This document shows positions 13,038-31,314 of a stretch of DNA of 43,660 nucleotides, piece after piece. A program made the translations under genes and the position numbers. The stretch is taken from the IMG/VR virus record IMGVR_UViG_3300005590_000044, positions 1 through 43,660 of that record. The stretch is one strand, 5' to 3'. The notes beneath the pieces were generated by a model. It was not told the origin of the DNA. It ran no database searches and saw only the letters and a program-made list of their open reading frames with translations. The stretch comes from a virus. How positions within the stretch are numbered: position 1 is the first letter of the stretch; every line of letters starts with the position of its first letter.

Positions 13038-13267
13038 ACATGGAAGTCGCCACCGCCCTGATCGTATTGAACACCGCCCTGATCGCATTGATCGCCGTTT
13101 TTGCGTACCTGCAAAGCCGGAAGCAGATCGACTGCCAGGAACGAATCGACCGGGCACGCCTCGAGGCACTCCGCGAAGCGAACGGACAGCACCAACGAAT
13201 CATGCAATCCGCTTTTCAAATTTGGACGGAAGCGGCACGTCAGGGATCGGGATGGATCGAGAAATGA
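13034..13267 (+). CDS. Small membrane-anchored coiled-coil protein (77 aa)
   Basis: ATG 13034 overlaps the previous stop. One transmembrane helix (VATALIVLNTALIALIAVFA) is followed by a basic/acidic helix (QSRKQIDCQERIDRARLEAL). Layout resembles a holin- or spanin-like accessory. Translationally coupled to the protease gene at 13264. Confidence 0.6.
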   Translation: MNMEVATALIVLNTALIALIAVFAYLQSRKQIDCQERIDRARLEALREANGQHQRIMQSAFQIWTEAARQGSGWIEK

Positions 13268-14523
13268 AACCAGCAGCCACAATATTAGCGATCTTCCTCG
13301 CCGCGACCGTCTACGGGCAGCAGCCGCAGACGACCCTCTCACCGATCGATTCGAAGATCACCATCCGAGTCAGCGAGCAAGCGTTCGTCGATCGACCAAC
13401 AACGCCACTGACCCGGCAAAGCCTGGTGCGAGTTGAAACCTACGATCGGACCAACGCGAACTCGGTCGGCACCGGATCGATCATCTACAGCGATGCCGAC
13501 TACAGCATCGTCGCCACCAACAGCCACGTCGTCGCGGTCGAGCCGCGGCACGCCCCGCGGGGCAACATCCTGGTCCGCACGACGGCGGGCGATTCCTACG
13601 CGGAAGTCGCGTATGAGAATCCGCAGTATTCGTCCAACGACATCGATCTCGCTCTCTTAACGATTCGAACACCAGGCGGGCAACCATTGCCGGCGATACC
13701 GATCGGCGATTTCAGCGGGGACGATTATTTCTCTGCCGGCTTTTCATTCGGCAACCCACAAGTCACGCCGCGGCATCATCGCATGACCGGCGCGACCTAC
13801 TCGGGCGGACGCGTTCTAGAAACGTCCGCGGGCATCAACCAGGGCGAAAGCGGATCGCCACTGGTTAACAAGGACGGCGAACTGGTCGCCGTCCTTTGGG
13901 GGTCTGACGGCAGTCATGCAATGGGCGTCCCAGTAACGCACCTGAAGCAGATCGTCGAGACTCGATTTTTGGGCAGCGGACGGATCCTCCGCGCTATCGG
14001 ACAGCGCATCCTTGCAAGGTCCAACATGCGAGGGGGGGCGACGATTCAATGCCCAGGTGGCACGTGTCCTCCCCGTATCCAGGCGACGGGACCGATCGCC
14101 TCCCCATCGGTTCCGTCGCCTTCTACTCCGCTTCTTTCCGGATCCGGCCGGCGAGATTTAACCCGCGACCCGGATGGATGGAAACCGTTATCCAACCCGG
14201 CACCAGCAACGCCGAACGAAGACACCATCGTCGCGAAGGTAATCGATCGAATCAAAAGCGACCCGTCGTTTCGTGGTCCAGCAGGTCCAGCAGGTCCAGC
14301 AGGGGCGGACGGCATGCGAGGTGAACCAGGTCCAGCGGGCGAACCAGGTCCAGCGGGCACGGGAATCGTCGACATCAAGATGAACGACAAAAACGAAATA
14401 TACGTCACGTACATCAACGGACGCACCGAGAACATCGGCACGATTAACGTGCCTCAACCCAAAGCATCAACGGCGAGCAACGCGCCCGCCTTCTTTTCCA
14501 TCGTTCCAAAGGGGAGAAATTAA
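13264..14523 (+). CDS. Secreted trypsin-like serine protease with collagen-like triplets
   Basis: A 419-residue protein. A Sec signal peptide is evident (MKPAATILAIFLAATVYG, probable cleavage before QQ). Residues 50-250 form a chymotrypsin/HtrA fold: catalytic His88 in TNSHVV, Asp128 in NDIDLALL, Ser196 in GESGSP. There is no PDZ domain. After a Pro/Ser-rich linker come collagen-like GPA/GEP/GAD triplets (about 338-364), then a short C-terminal beta segment. Collagen-like stretches in phage proteins usually drive trimer formation. The gene is followed by small membrane proteins and holin candidates, and no lysozyme or amidase is seen elsewhere. A role in proteolytic envelope disruption is a reasonable hypothesis; a virion-associated or superinfection role is the alternative. 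Confidence 0.85.
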   Translation: MKPAATILAIFLAATVYGQQPQTTLSPIDSKITIRVSEQAFVDRPTTPLTRQSLVRVETYDRTNANSVGTGSIIYSDADYSIVATNSHVVAVEPRHAPRGNILVRTTAGDSYAEVAYENPQYSSNDIDLALLTIRTPGGQPLPAIPIGDFSGDDYFSAGFSFGNPQVTPRHHRMTGATYSGGRVLETSAGINQGESGSPLVNKDGELVAVLWGSDGSHAMGVPVTHLKQIVETRFLGSGRILRAIGQRILARSNMRGGATIQCPGGTCPPRIQATGPIASPSVPSPSTPLLSGSGRRDLTRDPDGWKPLSNPAPATPNEDTIVAKVIDRIKSDPSFRGPAGPAGPAGADGMRGEPGPAGEPGPAGTGIVDIKMNDKNEIYVTYINGRTENIGTINVPQPKASTASNAPAFFSIVPKGRN

Positions 14524-17712: not shown

Positions 17713-20154
17713 ATGCTTTCGTACTTAAAACAATCGACCGCTTCACAGACCCGCATTGTCGGGCCTTTTGTCGATGATACCGATTTCAAAACCGTCGAAA
17801 CCGGCCTGACGATCGCGAATACCGACGTCAAGTTGTCGAAGAATGGCGGCACGGCAGCGAACAAGAACAGCGGCGGCGGAACGCACATCGCAAACGGTGA
17901 CTACGCGTTTACGTTCGACGCGACCGACACCGACACGGTTGGCGAATTGTCGATCTCAATCAGCGTCAGCGGTGCGTTGATTTGCAAGGCGAAATTCGTC
18001 GTTTTGGAGGAGGCGGTTTACGATTCGATGTTTGCTTCCGGTGCGGCGGGACCGCTTGACGCTGCCGGTACGCGATCGGCGATGGGCCTTGCTAACGCCG
18101 ACCTCGATACGCAGCTTGATGCGATCGTTGCCGACACCAACGAGATTCAAGTTGACTGGGCCGATGGCGGCCGGCTCGACTTGATTCTTGACGCTCGCGC
18201 GAGCCAGAGCAGCGTTGACACGGTTGACGGGATCGTCGATCAGATTCTCGTTGATACGGCGGTGATCGGAGCGGCCGGAGCAGGATTGACCGCCATCCCG
18301 TGGAACGCTTCCTGGGATGCGGAAGTGCAAAGCGAATGCACCGACGCACTCAACGCATACGACCCGCCGACAAAGACCGAACTTGACACCGCATTCACCG
18401 AGATCAAGGGAGCGACGTGGTCAAGCGGCACCGACACCCTCGAGGCCATTCGTGATCGAGGTGATGCGGCATGGACAACGGGCGCCGGTGGTTCGCCTCC
18501 CGACCTTTTGCAAAGCACGACCATAGCAACGCTCGCAAGCCAAACGTCGTTCACGCTCACCGCAGGGTCAGCAGACGACGACGCGTACAACGGAGCCATC
18601 GCGATCATCACCGATTCGGCCACCTCGACGCAGAAGGCCGTCGGTGCGGTAAGCGACTACACCGGATCAACCAAGACGATCACGCTATCGAGCGATCCGG
18701 CGATTTTCACAATGGCAGTAGGCGACACGATCGATATTGTTGCATCAACCGGCACGGGAGCAACGGCGGCAGCGATTCGAGCCGAGATCGACAGCAACTC
18801 GACACAGCTTGCGGCGATTGTTCAGGACACGGCCGAATTACAAACGAATCAAGGCAATTGGCTGACCGCAACCGGATTCTCAACGCATTCGGCAGGGGAC
18901 GCGGCAGATGCCGTTTGGAACGAAGCGGCGGCGGACCATCTCACGGGCGGTTCATTTGGCGCGGAGTGGGATGCGGCGCACAGCTACCTGACGACTGGCG
19001 GTGTCGCCGATGACGTCCACGATGCGGACCTGACGAACTACACGACGCCGGGCTCGGCGGGTCAAACGCTTACCGACATCGTGACCGATACCGCCGAAAT
19101 CGGTTCGGCGGGTGCCGGCTTGACCGCGATCCCGTGGAACTCATCCTGGGATGCGGAAGTGCAAAGCGAATGCACCGACGCACTCAACGCGTATGACCCG
19201 CCAACGCACGCGGAAGTGACGACGGCTTTCACCGAGATCAAGGGTGCGACGTGGTCAAGCAGTACCGATACGCTCGAGGAAATCCGCGACCGCGGCGATG
19301 CGGCATGGACTGGAGGCGGGAGCGGTTCTGATCTTTTGCAAACCACGACGATCGCAACGCTCGCCAGCCAGACGTCGTTCACGCTCACCGCAGGGAGCAG
19401 CGACGACGACGCATATAACGGAGCGACGGTCATCGTCACCGATTCAGCAACCTCGACGCAGAAAGCGGTCGGTCACGTCCTCAATTACACCGGATCGACC
19501 AAAACGATCACGCTGGCGAGCGATCCGGGAATCTTCACGATGGCGGCAGGCGATACGATTGACATCGTCGCTGGAACGACCGTGAACGACCTGACAGCGG
19601 CAGCGTTGGCGAAATTCATCACGACTGACACTGGAGAATCGACCGCGGCGACTGGTAGCGTTGCGAAAATCGCGCAAGGGGCGGCAGGTGGCAACGTCAC
19701 GGTCGGAAGTTTGACGCAAGCGGCCCTCGCACAATTCGCCACCGACGATACCGGCGAATCGACGGCAGCAACTCGCAGCGTTGCCAAACTTTCGCAGGCA
19801 GGCGGGCAGGAAGCCTTCGAAAACACGAATGTCGCAACATTCACGCTTCGCAAGGGCGACAGCTACGACGGAACGGCGAATCCGCTTGTCTCGTTCACGG
19901 TTGCCAAAGATTACACCGGCTGGACGGGCACGCTCGTTATCACGCATCGGGTCACCGGAGCAACGATCATGTCGGCCAGCGTAACGGTTGCCTCGAGTAC
20001 TTCCCTGACGGTCACGCTAACGACCACAGAGACGGCGTTTGCACTACTGACCACAGACGACGATTTCGGGCCGCATCCATACGACCTCCAAATGACCAGC
20101 GGCAGCAATTCACAAACGGCCAGCAGCGGCGTTGCCCTAATCAAGAAAGCATAA
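17713..20154 (+). CDS. Long tail fibre-like protein with internal duplication (813 aa)
   Basis: ATG 17713. The N-terminal 110 residues form a beta domain typical of fibre attachment modules. Two copies of a roughly 165-residue module follow (nucleotides about 18253-18750 and 19087-19578), each containing GLTAIPWN, WDAEVQSECTDALNAYDPPT, FTEIKGATWSS and SQTSFTLTAGS. A shorter tandem of TGESTAATxSVAK units comes next (about 19629-19800). The end is a BppU-like beta domain (DYTGWTGTLVITHRVTGATI). Repetition, Ala/Thr/Asp richness and context indicate a trimeric receptor-binding or side fibre. Catalytic domain not seen. Confidence 0.75.
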   Translation: MLSYLKQSTASQTRIVGPFVDDTDFKTVETGLTIANTDVKLSKNGGTAANKNSGGGTHIANGDYAFTFDATDTDTVGELSISISVSGALICKAKFVVLEEAVYDSMFASGAAGPLDAAGTRSAMGLANADLDTQLDAIVADTNEIQVDWADGGRLDLILDARASQSSVDTVDGIVDQILVDTAVIGAAGAGLTAIPWNASWDAEVQSECTDALNAYDPPTKTELDTAFTEIKGATWSSGTDTLEAIRDRGDAAWTTGAGGSPPDLLQSTTIATLASQTSFTLTAGSADDDAYNGAIAIITDSATSTQKAVGAVSDYTGSTKTITLSSDPAIFTMAVGDTIDIVASTGTGATAAAIRAEIDSNSTQLAAIVQDTAELQTNQGNWLTATGFSTHSAGDAADAVWNEAAADHLTGGSFGAEWDAAHSYLTTGGVADDVHDADLTNYTTPGSAGQTLTDIVTDTAEIGSAGAGLTAIPWNSSWDAEVQSECTDALNAYDPPTHAEVTTAFTEIKGATWSSSTDTLEEIRDRGDAAWTGGGSGSDLLQTTTIATLASQTSFTLTAGSSDDDAYNGATVIVTDSATSTQKAVGHVLNYTGSTKTITLASDPGIFTMAAGDTIDIVAGTTVNDLTAAALAKFITTDTGESTAATGSVAKIAQGAAGGNVTVGSLTQAALAQFATDDTGESTAATRSVAKLSQAGGQEAFENTNVATFTLRKGDSYDGTANPLVSFTVAKDYTGWTGTLVITHRVTGATIMSASVTVASSTSLTVTLTTTETAFALLTTDDDFGPHPYDLQMTSGSNSQTASSGVALIKKA
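18253..19578 (+). repeat. Duplicated fibre module (two direct copies)
   Basis: Copies at about 18253-18750 and 19087-19578 share long runs of near-identical DNA, for example the stretch encoding SWDAEVQSECTDALNAYDPP. The intervening 336 bases are not repeated. This is duplication of a fibre shaft segment within the gene. Confidence 0.8.
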
Positions 20155-20902: not shown

Positions 20903-21279
20903 CGAAGCCCCTGGTTTACATCGCATCGCCTTACACGAGCGGCGACCCTGCGATCAACACGAACTTTCAATGCCGCATATTTGACGCGATGTTGACCGCG
21001 AAACTCGCGACGCCGATCGCACCCCTTTGGTCACACTTTCAACACACGGTCTTTCCGAGGCGATACCAGGACTGGATCGCATACGCCGAAGAAATCGTCG
21101 CCAGGTGCGATGCCCTCGTCCGCCTCGATGCGGTCGAACCGTCGATCGGCTATCGCCAATCAGAATCAAGCGGAGCCGACAACGAAGTCAGGCTAGCCCG
21201 CGAACTTGGCAAGCCGGTCTTCACAACCCTCGACGACCTTTATCAATGGATTGACACCGAATGGAAGTGCAGCAACTAA
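20899..21279 (+). CDS. DUF4406 / nucleoside 2-deoxyribosyltransferase-like protein
   Basis: A 126-residue protein starting at GTG 20899 (GTGA overlap). The N-terminus VYIASPYTSGDPAIN and the late SSGADNEVRLARELGKPVF match the DUF4406/nucleoside-deoxyribosyltransferase fold, including the Asn and the Gly-Ala-Asp/Glu active-site pattern. Family members cleave or exchange nucleoside glycosidic bonds or bind nucleotides. In phages they may act in nucleotide metabolism or counter NAD-based defence. The end overlaps the methyltransferase start by 19 bases. Confidence 0.78.
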   Translation: MTKPLVYIASPYTSGDPAINTNFQCRIFDAMLTAKLATPIAPLWSHFQHTVFPRRYQDWIAYAEEIVARCDALVRLDAVEPSIGYRQSESSGADNEVRLARELGKPVFTTLDDLYQWIDTEWKCSN

Positions 21280-22559
21280 GCGTCGAACAACTGAGCAGCG
21301 ATCCGGCGAACGCACGAAAGCACGGCGACCACAACCTCGCCACGATCGTCGCAAGCCTTCGACGGTTCGGCCAGCAGAAACCGATCGTCATCGATAAGAG
21401 CGGCGTCGTTCGGGCCGGCAACGGCACGCTCGAGGCGGCACGGCAACTTGGATGGGAAACCATAGCGGTCGTCCAAACCGCCCTCGAAAGCAGCGAGGCG
21501 ACCGCATACGCGATCGCAGACAACCGAACGGCCGAACTTGCCGAATGGGACAACGAAGTCCTGATGGGCACGCTCGAGGGACTCCAACTGGAAGACCCGG
21601 ATCTCCTCGCCGCGGCAGGATTCACCGACGACGAACTCGCCGCGATCGCCGATGAATTTCGCGAAGACGACGAACTCGACGAAGACCCAACGCCGGCACC
21701 GCCTGCAACGCCAACGACGAAGCCAGGCGACATCTACGAACTCGGCAAGCACCGACTGATGTGCGGCGATTCGACCAGCGAGGCGGACGTGCGAGCGTTG
21801 GTCGGCGACACGTTCGTCGACGCCGTTGTCACGGATCCGCCTTACAACGTCGCCTATGAAGGCAAGACCGCGGACGCGTTGACGATCGAGAACGACGAAA
21901 TGGGGGACGGCGAGTTTTATAACTTCCTCCTCGACGCGTTCACCAACGCATGCCAGGTCACGAAGCCAGGCGGGCCGATGTACGTCTGTCACGCCGACAC
22001 GGAAGGCGTCAACTTTCGCAACGCCTACAACGCCGCGGGTTTCGAACTGAAGCAACTCTTGACTTGGGTCAAGAACAGCATGGTTCTAGGCCGGCAGGAC
22101 TACAACTGGAAGCACGAACCGATCCTCTATGGATGGAAGCCAGGGGCGGCGCACTGCTGGTATGGCAAGTTTGACAAGACCACGGTCATCGACGACGACA
22201 TCGACCTCAAGAAACTCGGCAAGCCGGAACTGATCGAGTTGATCAACAAATACCGGAACGGCGAATTCCCAACGGCGATCCGCGAAAGCCGGCCGACGGT
22301 CAGCGTCGACCACCCGACGATGAAACCGGTCAATCTGATCGCCTTCATGGTTCGCAACAGCACCAGGGAAGGCGACACCGTCCTCGACCTTTTCGGCGGC
22401 AGCGGATCGACGATGTCGGCATGCGAGCAACTCGGGCGACGGGCCAGGCTACTCGAACTGGATCCGAAGTACTGCGACGTCATCGTCCAACGCTGGGAAG
22501 CGTTGACCGGCGAGCGGGCAGTTTTGATTCGAGACGGTCGAACGATCGAGGCGGCATAG
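21261..22559 (+). CDS. ParB-like domain fused to DNA N6-adenine/N4-cytosine methyltransferase
   Basis: A 432-residue protein. Residues 1-105 are a ParB/Srx-like domain (LSSDPANARKH, FGQQKPIVIDKSG, VRAGNGTLEAARQLGW). After an acidic/Pro linker comes the methyltransferase: motif IV TDPPYNV (D192-Y195) and, near the end, motif I DLFGGSGST (from D376), followed by ELDPKYCDVIVQRW. Motif IV before motif I places it in the beta group. Phage ParB-methyltransferase fusions modify phage DNA against restriction, or act as orphan enzymes. It overlaps the DUF4406 gene. Base specificity cannot be read from the sequence. Confidence 0.88.
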   Translation: MEVQQLSVEQLSSDPANARKHGDHNLATIVASLRRFGQQKPIVIDKSGVVRAGNGTLEAARQLGWETIAVVQTALESSEATAYAIADNRTAELAEWDNEVLMGTLEGLQLEDPDLLAAAGFTDDELAAIADEFREDDELDEDPTPAPPATPTTKPGDIYELGKHRLMCGDSTSEADVRALVGDTFVDAVVTDPPYNVAYEGKTADALTIENDEMGDGEFYNFLLDAFTNACQVTKPGGPMYVCHADTEGVNFRNAYNAAGFELKQLLTWVKNSMVLGRQDYNWKHEPILYGWKPGAAHCWYGKFDKTTVIDDDIDLKKLGKPELIELINKYRNGEFPTAIRESRPTVSVDHPTMKPVNLIAFMVRNSTREGDTVLDLFGGSGSTMSACEQLGRRARLLELDPKYCDVIVQRWEALTGERAVLIRDGRTIEAA

Positions 22560-23135: not shown

Positions 23136-23581
23136 ACGAAGACGAACCGCTACGACGCAGCGACATGCGACTTTTTGAGCAAGCAATGAACCAGCGATGG
23201 CCAATCGACGACAAATATCGATCGCTGATGGTTCGACGGTTGATGTCGATCATCGCCGACCCCGAAAGCAACGCACGCCAAGTCACCGCGGCGAGCCGCG
23301 CACTGATCGCCGCGGAGGCACAAAACCAGCATGACGACACCCCGAAAGGCAACGAAGGAGGAAATCGATTTTCTGCGATCGCTGAGCAACTCGGAATTGT
23401 CGTCCCTGCTGGCAGAGTTACCGATCGCCGAACAGACGTCGATCCTGCAGCAACTGATCAACGAACCGGAACCAGCGAAGCAGGACGAACGGCAGTCACA
23501 ACGGGAACTGATGGCGGCGAAGCGGGCGAAGGAACGCGACCTGCGGATCCCCCTGCCGAAGAACGTCCAGCGCCGGATTGA
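23132..23581 (+). CDS. Small terminase subunit candidate (149 aa)
   Basis: ATG 23132 overlaps the previous stop. The first 70 residues are helical: MRLFEQAMNQRWPIDDKYRS, LMSIIADPESNARQVTAASR and ALIAAEAQNQ. This resembles short phage proteins encoded just before the large terminase. Thereafter the gene overlaps the terminase gene by 251 bases (23331-23581) and its sequence becomes low-complexity. The real functional part may be the N-terminal half, with the tail constrained only by the terminase frame. The small-subunit role is inferred from position. Confidence 0.55.
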   Translation: MNEDEPLRRSDMRLFEQAMNQRWPIDDKYRSLMVRRLMSIIADPESNARQVTAASRALIAAEAQNQHDDTPKGNEGGNRFSAIAEQLGIVVPAGRVTDRRTDVDPAATDQRTGTSEAGRTAVTTGTDGGEAGEGTRPADPPAEERPAPD

Positions 23582-26500
23582 TTGCCTGGCCAACGCCGAG
23601 TTGTTTTTGACGACCTACTTCGGATCAACCTTTTTCCAGGCGTTCACGCCGGACAGAAAGGCGATGCTCAACAGCATCATCGATGCGGCCAGGTACGGCG
23701 GCGACTACGCACTCGCCGGACCTCGAGGCGAAGGGAAGGCATTGTCGTTAGATACGGTTTTACACCGAAGTGATGGAACGACGGTTGCGATGGGCGACGT
23801 TTCGGTCGGCGACTCGCTGGTTGATATGGATGGCAACCCGACGCAAGTTACTTTTGCGACACCGGTGCAGAAAGAGCGAAAGTGCTATCGCGTAACACTA
23901 GCGGACGGCGAAACGGTCATCGCCGATGCGGATCACCAATGGCTTGTCAATCGAAGCAGTTGCGGCCGAAGGGTCGTGACCACGCAACAAATGGCGGATG
24001 CAGGATTGTCTCTATCCAAGGGGCACCGATTTACGATACCCATCGCCTCGAAAATAGAACGGCCTCCGGTTGAGTTGCCAATTGATCCCTATGTTTTTGG
24101 CTGCTGGTTGGGCGACGGGTCGACCAACCGAAACGAATTTACCACCAGCGACGAAGACAAAGGGCACTTTGTCGGAGAGTTCAAACGAGCGTGCCTTGAT
24201 TGCAGCGGCACATCGAGACGCAAAAAAGGTGCGGGTTGCACGACATTTACCATTGGAATGGGGTCGAGCCGGTCAACCGCAATGCGAAAGAAAATACTGG
24301 CAGCAGTAACTGAAAAGGGGACCTACCAGGAACTAGCGAATCGCCACGGTATTTCGGCGATGACGGTCCATAAGGGAGGAAAAGAAGGTCTCAGGAAAAC
24401 CTCGCTCGTTGTTTTGCTACGGGAGATAAAAGCGTTGGGGACAAAATCCATCCCGTCGATTTATTTTGAGGGCAGCGCAGAACAGCGGACCTCGTTACTC
24501 GCTGGATTGCTTGATACGGATGGCAGCATTTCAAAACGAGGGCAAGTGGAATTTTCCAACGCTCGTCGGTCATTGTGCGAGGCAGTTGTTCGCCTGGCAG
24601 CATCGATCGGGGAACGCCCTGGTGCGATTTCGGAAAAGCAAATCGATGGCAAGACGTACTATCGAACTCGTTTCACAGCAAGGAGCCAGGTGTTTCGGTT
24701 GCCAAGAAAAGCGGAGCGAGTGATGTTTCGCGTTCCGCGGCCAAAAGCGGTGGTATCGATTGAGCCAGTTGATTCTGTCCCGGTCCGATGTATCCAAGTC
24801 GATTCACCAACGAGTACGTTTTTGATCGGCGATCGATTCACTGTGACGCACAACACCCGCCTGGCGATGTACGGGGCGGTTTACCTGATGTTCGCCGGAC
24901 TTTCGCCCTTCCCGATTGTCATCGGCAAGAGCCAGACGAAATCGCAGAACGAACTCAAAACCATCAAGGAACGCCTGCAGCAGAACGCCGAACTGATCGC
25001 CGATTTCCCTGAAGTAGGCGTCCCCTTCCAATCGGTCGGGGCATGGTCCAGCAGGGCACGAATGCAAACCGTCGGCGGCGTTTCGACCAACATCGAAATC
25101 GCAGCGGACCACCTGATCTTCCCAACGATCACCAGGGAACAACTGCCGGCCGATTGGCCGGACGAATGCGAACCGACCAGCCAGGGACAGATCATGTCCA
25201 GCCTGGGCGTCGACGGACCGATTCGAGGCACGAACTTTCGTGACCATCGGCCAACGCTGGCGATCCTCGACGACATCGAGAACAAAGAAACGGCCGAAAG
25301 CGACGGGACGATCGAAAAGAACGAAGACATCATCGAAAAGGATGTCGGCGGATTGGGCGGCAGCGGTCGCCGGGTTTCGCGAGTCATGCTTTGCACGACG
25401 CAGAACCGGAAGTGCATCGCGTACAAATACACCGACCGGAAATGCAAGCCTTCGTGGAAGGGCCGGCGTTTCCGAAAGATGATCACGCCACCAGACCGAA
25501 AGGATCTTTGGGACGAATACATCGAACTTCGGCAAGCAAGGGCCGACGACGACCCGGACGCGCGGGTCGCGTTTCGGTTCTACCGCGACAACCAGGCCGA
25601 AATGGATCGCGGAGCCGAAATCAGCAACCCATACAGCTACGATCGCCGCGATGCCGAAGACGGCGAGACGATAGAGCTCTCAGCGATCCAAGCATACTAC
25701 AACCGGGTCGCGGACTTCGGCGAAGAAGCGGTCGCGACCGAAGACGACAACGACCCGCCAGAGACGGTCGGCCCGCAGGGCAGCGGATTGACAGCGGGAA
25801 TCGTTGCGAGCCGCAACAGCGGACTCGATCGATTGCAGGTGCCAGCGAACACGACGTGCATCACCTACGGGATCGACCTCGGCAAATACCGATGCCACTG
25901 GGTCGGCATCGCCTGGTGGAAAGGGGCGGGCGGTTGCATCTTCGACTACGGGGTCGCGGACGTTTACGGCACCGACGAATCGATGGACAACGACCAAAGC
26001 GAGCCGGCGATCTACCGGGCACTGGTCAACTGGCGGGACGAACTCCTCGCCACAAAGATCGTCGACGCAGCCGGCACGGAGCGGTCGATCAATTCGGTGA
26101 TGGTCGACAGCGGGACGTTCACCGATTCCGCCTACGAATTCATCCGGCAGGTCGGCGGGAACTTTCATGTCAGCAAGGGGGTCGGCGGATACAAGCAACC
26201 GAAAGCGAACACGAACACGATCGTCGCCAACCACCTACACGCAAGCAAGCAAACGGAAAAGGGCGTCTGGCTCTGGAATCTTGACACCGACTACTGGAAG
26301 CAATGGGTTCATGAGCGGTTTTTAACGCCGACGTTCGACGACGAAAACATGCTGCGACGGGGAAGCCTCTCGCTCTTTTCGCCGGGACCACGGAAGAAAC
26401 ACCTGACCTTCGCGCAGCACATCACCGCGGAGGAATACGTCGAGGAATTCGTCGCCGGCAAGGGAACGAAAAAATACTGGTACCCGCACGGCAAGAACAA

Positions 26501-26702
26501 CCACTGGCTCGATGCGACCTACCAGGCGGCAGCGGCCGCAGGCGGGATGGGCGTCGAAATCCTCAGCGGACCAGAAATCAAGATCGCCGCGAAAGCGGTC
26601 GATGGCGGCGCGAAGAAGAAGCAGAAGAAGCGACGACCGAATCACGGTCGATTCAAAACCCGTCCAGGTGGATGGGTCCAAGGACAACGAAGGAGAACTT
26701 GA
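23331..26702 (+). CDS. terL: Terminase large subunit, interrupted by an intein
   Basis: A 1123-residue precursor; 751 residues after splicing. The extein Walker A is GPRGEGK at 130-136, completed by the Thr that follows the intein (unspliced Thr509), so splicing rebuilds GPRGEGKT. Walker B is LAILDDIE (Asp647/648). The nuclease domain has an RNase-H-like YGIDLGK (Asp849), MVDSGTF (Asp926) and a late HWLDATYQ (Asp1061). The packaging motor translocates DNA into the prohead and cuts the concatemer. The N-terminal 80 residues are charged and overlap the upstream gene in another frame. The C-terminus is basic. Unless the intein splices out, the ATPase site is split and inactive. Confidence 0.9.
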   Translation: MTTPRKATKEEIDFLRSLSNSELSSLLAELPIAEQTSILQQLINEPEPAKQDERQSQRELMAAKRAKERDLRIPLPKNVQRRIDCLANAELFLTTYFGSTFFQAFTPDRKAMLNSIIDAARYGGDYALAGPRGEGKALSLDTVLHRSDGTTVAMGDVSVGDSLVDMDGNPTQVTFATPVQKERKCYRVTLADGETVIADADHQWLVNRSSCGRRVVTTQQMADAGLSLSKGHRFTIPIASKIERPPVELPIDPYVFGCWLGDGSTNRNEFTTSDEDKGHFVGEFKRACLDCSGTSRRKKGAGCTTFTIGMGSSRSTAMRKKILAAVTEKGTYQELANRHGISAMTVHKGGKEGLRKTSLVVLLREIKALGTKSIPSIYFEGSAEQRTSLLAGLLDTDGSISKRGQVEFSNARRSLCEAVVRLAASIGERPGAISEKQIDGKTYYRTRFTARSQVFRLPRKAERVMFRVPRPKAVVSIEPVDSVPVRCIQVDSPTSTFLIGDRFTVTHNTRLAMYGAVYLMFAGLSPFPIVIGKSQTKSQNELKTIKERLQQNAELIADFPEVGVPFQSVGAWSSRARMQTVGGVSTNIEIAADHLIFPTITREQLPADWPDECEPTSQGQIMSSLGVDGPIRGTNFRDHRPTLAILDDIENKETAESDGTIEKNEDIIEKDVGGLGGSGRRVSRVMLCTTQNRKCIAYKYTDRKCKPSWKGRRFRKMITPPDRKDLWDEYIELRQARADDDPDARVAFRFYRDNQAEMDRGAEISNPYSYDRRDAEDGETIELSAIQAYYNRVADFGEEAVATEDDNDPPETVGPQGSGLTAGIVASRNSGLDRLQVPANTTCITYGIDLGKYRCHWVGIAWWKGAGGCIFDYGVADVYGTDESMDNDQSEPAIYRALVNWRDELLATKIVDAAGTERSINSVMVDSGTFTDSAYEFIRQVGGNFHVSKGVGGYKQPKANTNTIVANHLHASKQTEKGVWLWNLDTDYWKQWVHERFLTPTFDDENMLRRGSLSLFSPGPRKKHLTFAQHITAEEYVEEFVAGKGTKKYWYPHGKNNHWLDATYQAAAAAGGMGVEILSGPEIKIAAKAVDGGAKKKQKKRRPNHGRFKTRPGGWVQGQRRRT
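23739..24854 (+). mobile_element. Class 3-type intein with LAGLIDADG homing endonuclease in terL
   Basis: 372 residues inserted between Lys136 and the Thr of the P-loop. The intein begins Ala-Leu-Ser-Leu-Asp-Thr rather than with Cys or Ser, and ends VTHN with Thr as +1 residue. The class 3 triad is visible: Trp68 in DHQWLV, Cys351 in RCIQVD, Thr370 in VTHN (intein numbering). Two LAGLIDADG helices are present, FGCWLGDGS (Asp126) and LLAGLLDTDGS (Asp261), both with their acidic residue, so homing activity may be intact. A small HTH-like segment (ELANRHGISAMTVHK) sits between them. Base composition and codon use are more A/T-rich than in the flanking extein, suggesting later arrival. Confidence 0.9.
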
Positions 26703-27261: not shown

Positions 27262-27477
27262 ATGGCAACGGCATCCCAACTCTTAACGAAGGTCAACGCA
27301 GCGATCGACGCGTTGTTGACCGGCCAGCACGAAAGCTACTCGATCGGCGACCGAACGGTCACCCGGTTGGATCTTGATTCGTTGATGGCGACACGCGCGA
27401 CCCTCGAGCGGCAAGTGAGCCGGGAATCGAACGGGGCGTTTCGGGTCGCGCGGATCGGAAGGGCCAGCAAGGGATGA
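27262..27477 (+). CDS. gpW-like head-tail joining protein (71 aa)
   Basis: ATG 27262. The pattern LLTKVNAAIDALLTGQHESY, SIGDRTVTRLDLDSLMATRA and LERQVS matches lambda gpW in length and in its two-helix, beta-hairpin layout. The location between terminase and lambda-type portal is the same as in lambda. gpW closes the portal vertex after packaging and provides a tail-binding site. It overlaps the portal gene by four bases. Confidence 0.8.
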   Translation: MATASQLLTKVNAAIDALLTGQHESYSIGDRTVTRLDLDSLMATRATLERQVSRESNGAFRVARIGRASKG

Positions 27478-29090
27478 TCGGAGAAGCAATCGACAAGATG
27501 GTCGGCATGGTTTCGCCGGTCGCCGGTTTGAAACGTTCGCACGCCAGACGCGTCCTGCGTTCCTACGAAGGGGCCAGGCCAAACCGTCTGACGGCAAGCC
27601 GGACGCCGACGAATCAATCGGCGGACAACGAACTCCTCGGCCCTTTCGGGGCGGACAACATGCGGGCCTGGGCACGGATGCTCGTCCGCGATAACGCATA
27701 CGCATGGGGCGTCGTTGATACGATCGTTTCGAGTGTCGTTGGCAACGGCATCAAAACGCAATCGATGCTGGAAGACGACGCCGGCAACGACCGGACCGAC
27801 GAAAACGAACAACGCGACAGCGTCTGGCAAGATTGGTGCGAAGTTTGCGACGTCAACGGGCAGCTAAACTTCGACGAAATCCAGGCACTCGCTCAACGCG
27901 AAATTGTGGAAGCCGGCGAATGCTTGGTCCACTACGTCAACACGCCTGGCAAGACTCATCGCGGCATCACTCGCCCGGTTCCCCTCGCCATTGAATTGAT
28001 CGAGGCGGACCGCCTGGCGAGCGACCGCGACAATTACACGTTCCGAAAGATCGGCGGCAAGAACCGGGTCGTCCGCGGGATCGAAATCGACGACCTCGGC
28101 AAGCCGGTCGCGTACTGGATCTATCCCGAACACCCAACCGCACCAGGTGTCCTGCGGCAAGAGCCGCGACGGATCCCGGCACGGAACATCCGCCACCTGT
28201 TTCGGCAAGACCGGATCGGACAGAGCCGCGGGATTTCATGGTTCGCACCCGTCCTAACGTGGATCCGCGACCTTGGGTTCTACGTTGACAACGAACTGCA
28301 GGCCAGCGCGGTCGCCTCTTGTTTCACGGTTGCGATTAAGAGCGACGGCACGCTCGAAACGGAAGGATTGCTCAACCCGGATCTCGACGACGACGTCGAC
28401 GAACGGAGCAACCGCTACGAACACCTCGAGCCAGGCATGATCATGCACCTGGGGCCAAACGAATCGATCGATTCGGCCAACCCCGGTCGCCCGAACAGCG
28501 CCGCGGAACCGTGGATCAACCTGATGCTTCGAGGCATCAGCGTCGGAACCGGCCTGAGTTTTGAGACGGTCGCAAGGGACTACAGCAAGACCAACTACAG
28601 CGCGAACCGAGCAAGCCAACTCGAGGATCGCCGACGATTCCGCAGGTGGCAGGGATACCTCTGCAACAACCTGTGTCAACCGACCTGGGACCGATTCACC
28701 GAAGCGGCAGCGATCGCCGGCGTCGATGGATTCCCAACTATGACCGAACTGCTCCAGGCGAGGCGGAAGGCAGCACCCGTCAAGCACTTGCCACAGGGAT
28801 GGGAATGGGTCGACCCAACGAAAGAGCAAGCCTCGTCCGCGGCAGCGATCGACGCGATGCAAAGCACCTACCAGGACGAAACCGCGGCGAAGGGTAAGAA
28901 CTGGCGAACGGTTCTGCGGCAGCGAGCCAAAGAAGTGCAGTTGATGAAAGACCTCGGACTCCAGCCGAACCTCAGCGGAGGAACGCCGGCAGCGGAGAAA
29001 CCAGACGCGAAACCAGACGAACCAGACGTCGACGACGACGAAGCGGAAGAAGAAGAAACGGAAGACGAACTGGAGGCGATCGATGGCTAA
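27474..29090 (+). CDS. Portal protein, lambda gpB-like family
   Basis: A 538-residue protein (ATGA overlap at 27474). Characteristic segments include NMRAWARMLVRDNAYAWGVV with DTIVSSVVGNGI, then HLFRQDRIGQSRGISWFAPV, and ISVGTGLSFETVARDYSKTN with YSANRASQLEDRR. These match the lambda-type portal family. The C-terminal 70 residues are Asp/Glu-rich. Twelve copies form the DNA entry ring at one capsid vertex and dock the terminase and gpW. It overlaps the capsid polyprotein gene by eight bases. Confidence 0.9.
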   Translation: MIGEAIDKMVGMVSPVAGLKRSHARRVLRSYEGARPNRLTASRTPTNQSADNELLGPFGADNMRAWARMLVRDNAYAWGVVDTIVSSVVGNGIKTQSMLEDDAGNDRTDENEQRDSVWQDWCEVCDVNGQLNFDEIQALAQREIVEAGECLVHYVNTPGKTHRGITRPVPLAIELIEADRLASDRDNYTFRKIGGKNRVVRGIEIDDLGKPVAYWIYPEHPTAPGVLRQEPRRIPARNIRHLFRQDRIGQSRGISWFAPVLTWIRDLGFYVDNELQASAVASCFTVAIKSDGTLETEGLLNPDLDDDVDERSNRYEHLEPGMIMHLGPNESIDSANPGRPNSAAEPWINLMLRGISVGTGLSFETVARDYSKTNYSANRASQLEDRRRFRRWQGYLCNNLCQPTWDRFTEAAAIAGVDGFPTMTELLQARRKAAPVKHLPQGWEWVDPTKEQASSAAAIDAMQSTYQDETAAKGKNWRTVLRQRAKEVQLMKDLGLQPNLSGGTPAAEKPDAKPDEPDVDDDEAEEEETEDELEAIDG

Positions 29091-31314
29091 AAAGCAAAAA
29101 CGTCCTCGTCGCGTCAACACCTACGCGAACCAGGACAAGCAGATCCTGCGAATGGTCTCCATCGTTGCCGATTCGGCCAACGACGAAGATCGCAGCATCG
29201 CAGTCATCATCGCGACGGAGAATCCCGTTCGGCGATACGACGCGAAGCGAAAAACGCACGTCGACGAAATCCTGATGATGGACGGCGTCCAGTTTCGCAC
29301 CAGCCTGCGACAGCTGCCGATCGTTGATAGTCACGACCGGACGACCGTCCGCAACGTCTACGGAAGCGTCCGCGACATCGAAGTGCAAGGCGATCAACTG
29401 ATCGGACGGGCAACCTTCGCCGACGACGTCGAATCGCAGAACGCCTATCGCAAACTTCGCGACGGGCACCTGACGGACTTCTCGATCACCGCCTCGCCCA
29501 ACGAAATCCTCGAATTGCAGCGAGGCGAAAGTTACGCCATCGGCGAGCGGGAATTTGTCGGACCGACCGACATCGTCATGGCATGGCAACCGACCGACGC
29601 CTCGCTGGTCGCAGCGGGCGCAGACCCAACCTCACGCGTCCGCGAACTGCGGCGTTCCTACGAATATCACGGAGAAGACGAAACAATGGATCCCGAACTG
29701 CTCGCCGAACTGATCGCCCGCGGAATGCCGGAAGCGATCAAGGAAGACAACGCCGCGATTCTTCGATGGGTCATCGATAACCCGGTCAAACGGGCCGAAG
29801 ACGAAAAAGAAGAAGACGACACCGAACGCGAAGAAGACGACGCCGAAGAAGGCGACGACACCGAACGCGAAGAAGGCGACGAAGAAGAAGATCGCGAAGA
29901 CGACGACAAGACCGAACGCGCCGTCGACAAGGCAGTCAAATCGGAGCGTCGACGCATCCAAGAAATCCAGTCCGCATGCGAAGGGGTCGGAATCGAGCGG
30001 GCATTTGCCGACGACCTCTGCCGTCGCGGTCTTTCCCTCAACACCGCCCGCAAAAGGATCCTCGGAGAAATGGCAAAGCAAAGCGAAGAACTCGGCCGGC
30101 GACCAGACGACGACATCACCCGCACTCGGGTGACCGAAAGCGAAACCGACAAGTTCAACGCCGCCGTTCGCGACGGGTTGATCATGCGGAGCGTTGCATC
30201 CAGCGGCGTCAGCCGGCCAGCGTTCGAAGGCGAAAACAAGCCGGCACCAGGTGCCGATGATTTCCGCCACATGAGCATGATGCGGATCGCCGAACGCATC
30301 CTCCAGCGCGGGCGGATCAACACCGACCGCATGAACCAGAAGGACATCGCGATGGTTGCCCTCGGGCACACGCCGACGATCAACCGGATCCAGCGGGCCG
30401 GCGAAGCGTATCACACGACCGGATCGTTCCCGAACCTTCTCCTCGACGCAGCCAACAAAACGCTGAATGCGGGTTACGAGGAAGCGGATTACACCTGGTC
30501 GATGTGGGCACGCCAAGCACCATCGGTCGCCGATTTCAAAGAAATCAACCGGATCCGGTTTAGCGAATCGCCAGACCTCGAGCATGTCCCCGAAAACAGC
30601 GACTACCCGGAAGGGTCGGAATCCGACGAACGCGAAAAGTACTCGATCGAAAAATTCGGTCGCGTATTCAGCGTCACCTGGGAAACCGTGGTCAACGACG
30701 ACCTCGACGCGATCAGCCGAATCCCCGCGATGCACGGAGCCGCGGCACGGCGAACGCAGAACAAAAAGGTCTATGAAGTCCTCACCGACAACGACGACCT
30801 GAACGACGGCGTTGCATTGTTCCACTCGAGCCACAGCAACCTCGCCGGCAGCACCGGCGCACCGAGCATCACGACCCTGAATGCCGCCTACGTTTCGATG
30901 ATGACGCAAACCGGCCTGACCGACGCGATCATCAACGTCGTTCCGCGGTTCATCATCGTGCCGGTCGCCCTTTCGGCGACCGTACTGCAACTGCTCGGTT
31001 CGATGGCGGATCCATCGGCGGGCGGAACCGCGGCCGGTAACTCCAACACCAAGAACATCTATGGACCTGGTGGCGGGCGAGCATTGACGCCGATCGTCGA
31101 ACCGCAACTCGACGGCAACTCGGCGACCGCCTGGTATCTCGCCGCGGCGAACAACCAGGTCGACACCGTCGAGCTTGCGTTCTTGCAAGGCGAAGAATCG
31201 CCGGTCATCGAATCGGAATGGGATTTCAACAAAGACGTCTGGAAGCACAAAGTGCGGCAGACCTTCGGCACCAAAGCGATCGATTATCGCGGGGTCTACA
31301 AAAACGCCGGCTAA
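29083..31314 (+). CDS. Prohead protease-major capsid protein fusion
   Basis: A 743-residue polyprotein. The N-terminal prohead protease shows catalytic His84 in PIVDSHDR and Ser134 in TDFSITAS. A very acidic Asp/Glu linker (about 235-285) and a helical basic stretch probably act as scaffold. From about residue 330 the sequence turns into an HK97-fold major capsid protein, with FKEINRIRFSESPDLEHVPE, ALFHSSHSNLAG and a C-terminal EWDFNKDVWKHKVRQTFG. Such fusions are known in tailed phages: the protease frees the shell protein during maturation. No separate capsid or scaffold gene is present. ATG 29083 overlaps the portal gene. Confidence 0.88.
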   Translation: MAKKQKRPRRVNTYANQDKQILRMVSIVADSANDEDRSIAVIIATENPVRRYDAKRKTHVDEILMMDGVQFRTSLRQLPIVDSHDRTTVRNVYGSVRDIEVQGDQLIGRATFADDVESQNAYRKLRDGHLTDFSITASPNEILELQRGESYAIGEREFVGPTDIVMAWQPTDASLVAAGADPTSRVRELRRSYEYHGEDETMDPELLAELIARGMPEAIKEDNAAILRWVIDNPVKRAEDEKEEDDTEREEDDAEEGDDTEREEGDEEEDREDDDKTERAVDKAVKSERRRIQEIQSACEGVGIERAFADDLCRRGLSLNTARKRILGEMAKQSEELGRRPDDDITRTRVTESETDKFNAAVRDGLIMRSVASSGVSRPAFEGENKPAPGADDFRHMSMMRIAERILQRGRINTDRMNQKDIAMVALGHTPTINRIQRAGEAYHTTGSFPNLLLDAANKTLNAGYEEADYTWSMWARQAPSVADFKEINRIRFSESPDLEHVPENSDYPEGSESDEREKYSIEKFGRVFSVTWETVVNDDLDAISRIPAMHGAAARRTQNKKVYEVLTDNDDLNDGVALFHSSHSNLAGSTGAPSITTLNAAYVSMMTQTGLTDAIINVVPRFIIVPVALSATVLQLLGSMADPSAGGTAAGNSNTKNIYGPGGGRALTPIVEPQLDGNSATAWYLAAANNQVDTVELAFLQGEESPVIESEWDFNKDVWKHKVRQTFGTKAIDYRGVYKNAG

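Follow-up and report, generated by a model that had tools for sequence, protein, structure and literature searches.

The window, i.e. the entire 43,660-nucleotide stretch of viral DNA that was analysed, encodes a terminase large subunit of the gpA type that is interrupted, between Lys and Thr of its Walker A motif, by a full-length class 3 intein carrying a predicted LAGLIDADG homing endonuclease. We consider this reading, with splicing by a route in which Cys351 acts first, to be about 95% probable, and infer that the intein splices, that its endonuclease is active and that packaging depends on splicing. The features of the precursor gene, all on the plus strand, are as follows.

23331..26702, +, precursor of the gpA-type terminase large subunit, interrupted in frame by the intein; a single open frame of 1123 aa, 751 aa after splicing
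23331..23738, +, N-extein of 136 aa, with the Walker A sequence ...GPRGEGK as its C-terminal end
23739..24854, +, class 3 intein, Ala1 to Asn372 (372 aa, precursor residues 137-508), read from the translation
23919..23948, +, block B, IADADHQWLV, in which His66 (B:10) presumably serves as catalytic base; His66 and Trp68 (B:12) are both invariant in 79 inteins
24096..24119, +, first LAGLIDADG motif, FGCWLGDG, residues 120-127, with Asp126 at least 90% conserved in 79 inteins
24261..24398, +, helix-turn-helix-like insert between the LAGLIDADG motifs, approximately residues 175-220 (about 45), core TYQELANRHGIS at 24321-24356; weak evidence
24495..24524, +, second LAGLIDADG motif, LLAGLLDTDG, residues 253-262, with Asp259, Asp261 and Gly262 invariant in 79 inteins; Pfam LAGLIDADG_3, E=1.1e-07
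24780..24809, +, block F, PVRCIQVDSP; its Cys351 (F:4) is presumably the nucleophile that starts splicing
24837..24854, +, block G, FTVTHN, containing Thr370 (G:5), His371 and Asn372
24855..26699, +, C-extein from Thr+1 (the Walker A Thr): remainder of the ATPase, with DDIE as probable Walker B, and nuclease domain

The intein is flanked by ...ALAGPRGEGK upstream and TRLAMYG... downstream in one uninterrupted 1123-aa frame, and it splits the Walker A motif GPRGEGK/T between Lys and Thr, with Thr as the +1 residue. The translation agreed exactly with the coordinates 23739-24854, and with Ala1, Trp68, Cys351, Thr370, Asn372 and Thr+1, as given in an initial annotation made from the letters only.

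Class 3 inteins are recognised by Trp at B:12, Cys at F:4 and Thr at G:5 (the W-C-T signature), a first residue that is not a nucleophile, and in most cases Ser or Thr as the +1 residue (PMC5222942; PMC5050341). The window intein has Ala1 and thus no Cys, Ser or Thr at the first position, Trp68 at B:12, Cys351 at F:4, Thr370-His371-Asn372 at the end of block G, and Thr+1. In an alignment with 25 relatives (A1) Cys351, Thr370, His66 and Asn372 were invariant and Trp68 was found in 24 of 25, and in a larger alignment of 79 inteins (A2) all five residues were invariant, a pattern that is partly selected since these sequences were collected by similarity to the window intein. Among 109 relatives read from their loci the +1 residue was Thr in 73, Ser in 31 and Cys in 5, position 1 was Ala in 69, with Pro, Gly and Asp also found, and Cys F:4 was present in 107; as the sequences were gathered by similarity, these counts are not a census. 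The initial annotation had named a conserved Cys or Ser at position 1 of close homologues, or poor conservation of Trp68 and Cys351, as observations that would speak against its class 3 assignment. Neither was seen, position 1 being mostly Ala and both residues being conserved in A1 and A2 (24/25 and 79/79 for Trp68, 25/25 and 79/79 for Cys351), and the assignment is borne out by structure.

The two inteins without Cys F:4 (L008 and L062) begin with Cys and have no Trp at B:12, as expected of class 1, and in a quick tree, where the placement of the window intein itself is weakly supported, a long branch sets them apart from all other inteins (SH-aLRT support 100%). Two further relatives are unusual in other ways. 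The intein at L116:2498-3577 combines Cys1 (CLALDTP...) with a complete W-C-T signature, and is perhaps a class 1/class 3 intermediate, and that in the terminase of Vibrio phage 1.238.A (L057, 701-1717) is class 3-like, retaining Cys F:4 and Thr G:5 but with Trp B:12 replaced by Asn.

The best matches of the window intein among PDB sequences (phmmer) were the class 3 DnaB inteins 6rix, 6bs8 and 6riy (MchDnaB1 and Msm DnaB; best E=8.7e-19), over blocks A/B and F/G. An AlphaFold2 model built from a 79-row alignment reached pLDDT 90.7 and pTM 0.87, and its splicing domain superimposed with all 125 of its residues on 6bs8 at 1.3 Å (39% identity). For MchDnaB1 (6rix/6riy) the fit was 1.6-1.7 Å (40-41% identity). 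In sequence as well as in structure, the window intein groups with class 3 and apart from class 1.

The host protein was identified through its nuclease domain, with matches to GpA_nuclease (Pfam PF20454) at E=1e-21 for the precursor and E=5.1e-22 for the spliced 751-aa protein, and through matches of the precursor to phrog_15 and phrog_38 (PHROG, terminase large subunit); ten of ten terminase homologues also match GpA_nuclease. The ATPase part of the spliced terminase gave no Pfam match to the gpA ATPase domain PF05876, and in the same part RGEGKT is invariant and DDIE conserved across 10 homologues. A PDB sequence search with the spliced terminase gave no convincing relative. A scan of viral contigs with the spliced protein as query returned 35 relatives with 52-66% identity in their best segments, and an uninterrupted RGEGKT was found in all relatives that cover the region (about 30 homologues), which identifies the intein as an insertion with exact boundaries. 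Stop-codon recoding was considered for some homologues (L024, L030, L037 and others) and rejected, the stop being a natural TAG at the gene end. Naming a host was likewise abandoned, since one scan of genome contigs with the terminase alignment yielded just a single 3.4-kb Alphaproteobacteria-binned contig (L146, 55% identity), which is too little to go on.

Downstream of the terminase lie the packaging genes for the portal (27474-29090) and a fused protease-capsid protein (29083-31314), so that terminase, portal and protease-capsid follow each other in the usual packaging gene order. The last of these is one 743-aa frame with matches to families of head proteases and of major capsid proteins, an apparent fusion. 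Elsewhere in the window we noted a DNA methyltransferase fused to a ParB-like domain upstream of the terminase (21261-22559), a 433-aa frame (13222-14523) in which a trypsin-like protease domain occurs together with a weak collagen-like stretch, and an 813-aa frame (17713-20154) that matched no PHROG and gave nothing above threshold in Pfam, where it had a sub-threshold match.

The whole modelled intein resembles PI-SceI (Z 28.6, rmsd 2.6 Å over 316 residues), and this fold, together with two LAGLIDADG motifs that carry the catalytic Asp residues, predicts an endonuclease. The insert between the motifs gave weak Pfam matches to HTH_Tnp_ISL3 (E=0.006), Sigma70_r4 (E=0.01) and HTH_23 (E=0.09), all under the curated cut-offs, and the confidence of the AlphaFold model is low across this stretch. 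In a Pfam scan of the 79 aligned inteins HTH_Tnp_ISL3 and Sigma70_r4 were matched by that of the window only, and some other inteins have sequence of similar length at this position. The insert could be an added DNA-recognition module, which we take as a lead only. A broader proposal, that the endonuclease gained an extra helix-turn-helix module absent from its relatives, which helped to retarget it to the gpA-type Walker A site, and that splicing may in addition be a timing step in packaging, appears unlikely.

The composition of the intein departs from that of its host gene, with a GC content of 52.9% vs 59-60% in the exteins and a GC3 of 0.54 vs 0.75-0.76, and none of 114 overlapping 1116-nt stretches taken from eight coding segments elsewhere in the window had a GC content as low. 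Low GC and GC3 along with a sporadic distribution point to an intein acquired from elsewhere. Around the insertion point 32 of 40 bases are identical in the nearest intein-less site.

Crystal structures of MchDnaB1 show a Cys124-His65-Thr143 triad, with a proposed role in N-terminal cleavage (PMC7664689), to which Cys351-His66-Thr370 corresponds in the window intein. In the proposed route to the mature terminase Cys351, helped by His66 and Thr370 and held in place by Trp68, would directly attack the peptide bond between Lys and Ala1, and the N-extein would then be transferred from the Cys351 thioester to the hydroxyl of Thr+1. Cyclisation of Asn372 would release the intein, and an acyl shift would join Lys to Thr, thereby restoring the ATP-binding loop GPRGEGKT. 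Once released, the intein could cleave alleles that lack an intein at this site and insert a copy of itself.

Judging from the interrupted motif, splicing would almost certainly be required for the terminase to bind ATP, and because the intein interrupts the ATP-binding loop we infer that packaging needs splicing as well. The initial annotation went further and tied head filling to a post-translational event; the necessity is retained here, and the regulation is not, as the sequence bears no sign of it. Such regulation would make the intein a conditional switch, in which splicing is delayed or senses redox state, metal or DNA, and packaging proceeds only late or when conditions are right; the switch would be a further property of a mobile class 3 intein and no substitute for that reading. 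In favour of a switch, the motor whose ATP site the intein occupies acts late, and mycobacterial DnaB inteins are reported to splice conditionally (PMC6195587, PMC7360933). On the other hand, phage TerL inteins that were assayed mostly spliced readily (PMC5050341) and intein-less homologues are the rule, and we regard a switch as rather improbable.

A decayed, splicing-defective intein, and hence a broken terminase gene, was rejected in view of a frame open over 1123 codons that preserves every catalytic residue, the two Asp motifs of the endonuclease and the motifs of the terminase, and with no second terminase gene recognised among the window proteins scanned this explanation has next to no probability. 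Equally negligible is a class 2 intein, which would share Ala1, but class 2 inteins are orthologues of KlbA that have Ser in position G:6 and use Cys+1 as a nucleophile (PMC4031507), whereas the window intein has His at G:6, Cys at F:4, Trp at B:12, Thr+1 and class 3 nearest relatives, the residues of blocks G and F being decisive.

The class 3 intein of the window belongs to a known kind. Class 3 inteins, some of them between the same TerL Lys and Thr, were described in 2016, and in the published assays five TerL inteins spliced and two cut DNA; relatives of the window intein at sites -b, -c and -e were among those that spliced, and the -b and -c inteins cut DNA (PMC5050341). Full-length phage relatives were found by tblastn (best E=4e-53), and relatives occur in 642 phage records, some of these class 1, and in at least 586 viral contig stretches, which contradicts the initial view that class 3 inteins are few. 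At least 58 of 109 inspected inteins are immediately preceded by Gly-Lys/Arg and followed by Thr/Ser, and among the matches listed no relative in phages or viral contigs exceeded about 42% identity. Given the published Lys/Thr inteins and the many relatives, that of the window is a further example, and a class 3 intein in the TerL Walker A motif is neither rare nor new. The small new points are the gpA-type host, seen also in several other viral contigs, the foreign composition, and the helix-turn-helix-like insert. The published mycobacteriophage survey lists only terminase_1, terminase_6 and terminase-like protein as terminase hosts, and a literature search of partial coverage returned no account of class 3 inteins in gpA-type terminases. 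The window offers a clean environmental example, with the P-loop of a terminase of the gpA type as its site, and the more than 100 inteins gathered indicate that class 3 is common in phage packaging ATPases, which fits its proposed phage origin.

Compared with individual systems, the mycobacterial inteins of Msm DnaB (6bs8) and MchDnaB1 (6rix/6riy) share the W-C-T signature and the fold of the splicing domain with the window intein (1.3-1.7 Å), but are mini-inteins without endonuclease in a helicase, whereas the window intein has an endonuclease and resides in a terminase; Msm DnaB-1 is also in a P-loop, but between Lys and Ser. Gaia TerL1-e (L046) is a class 3 intein for which splicing was demonstrated and is 35% identical over its full length, but is located near Walker B with Ser+1, and not in Walker A with Thr+1. 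The TerL1-a type of mycobacteriophages (PMC5050341), to which the NelitzaMV terminase intein (L054) was assigned by reading its junctions, has the class 3 signature, the LAGLIDADG endonuclease and the Walker A Lys/Thr terminase site in common with the window intein; it is about 31-35% identical, and its host is of the terminase_1 and not the gpA type. The inteins of Escherichia phage MIZ4 and Vibrio phage 489E54-1 occupy the same terminase site as that of NelitzaMV and have the W-C-T signature. Five viral contigs (L067, L077, L100, L124 and L140) also have class 3 inteins at Walker A of gpA-family terminases, whose host proteins match GpA_ATPase and in four cases also GpA_nuclease; these inteins are about 31-35% identical to that of the window, reside in exteins that belong to other branches of this family, and do not match the helix-turn-helix families of its insert.
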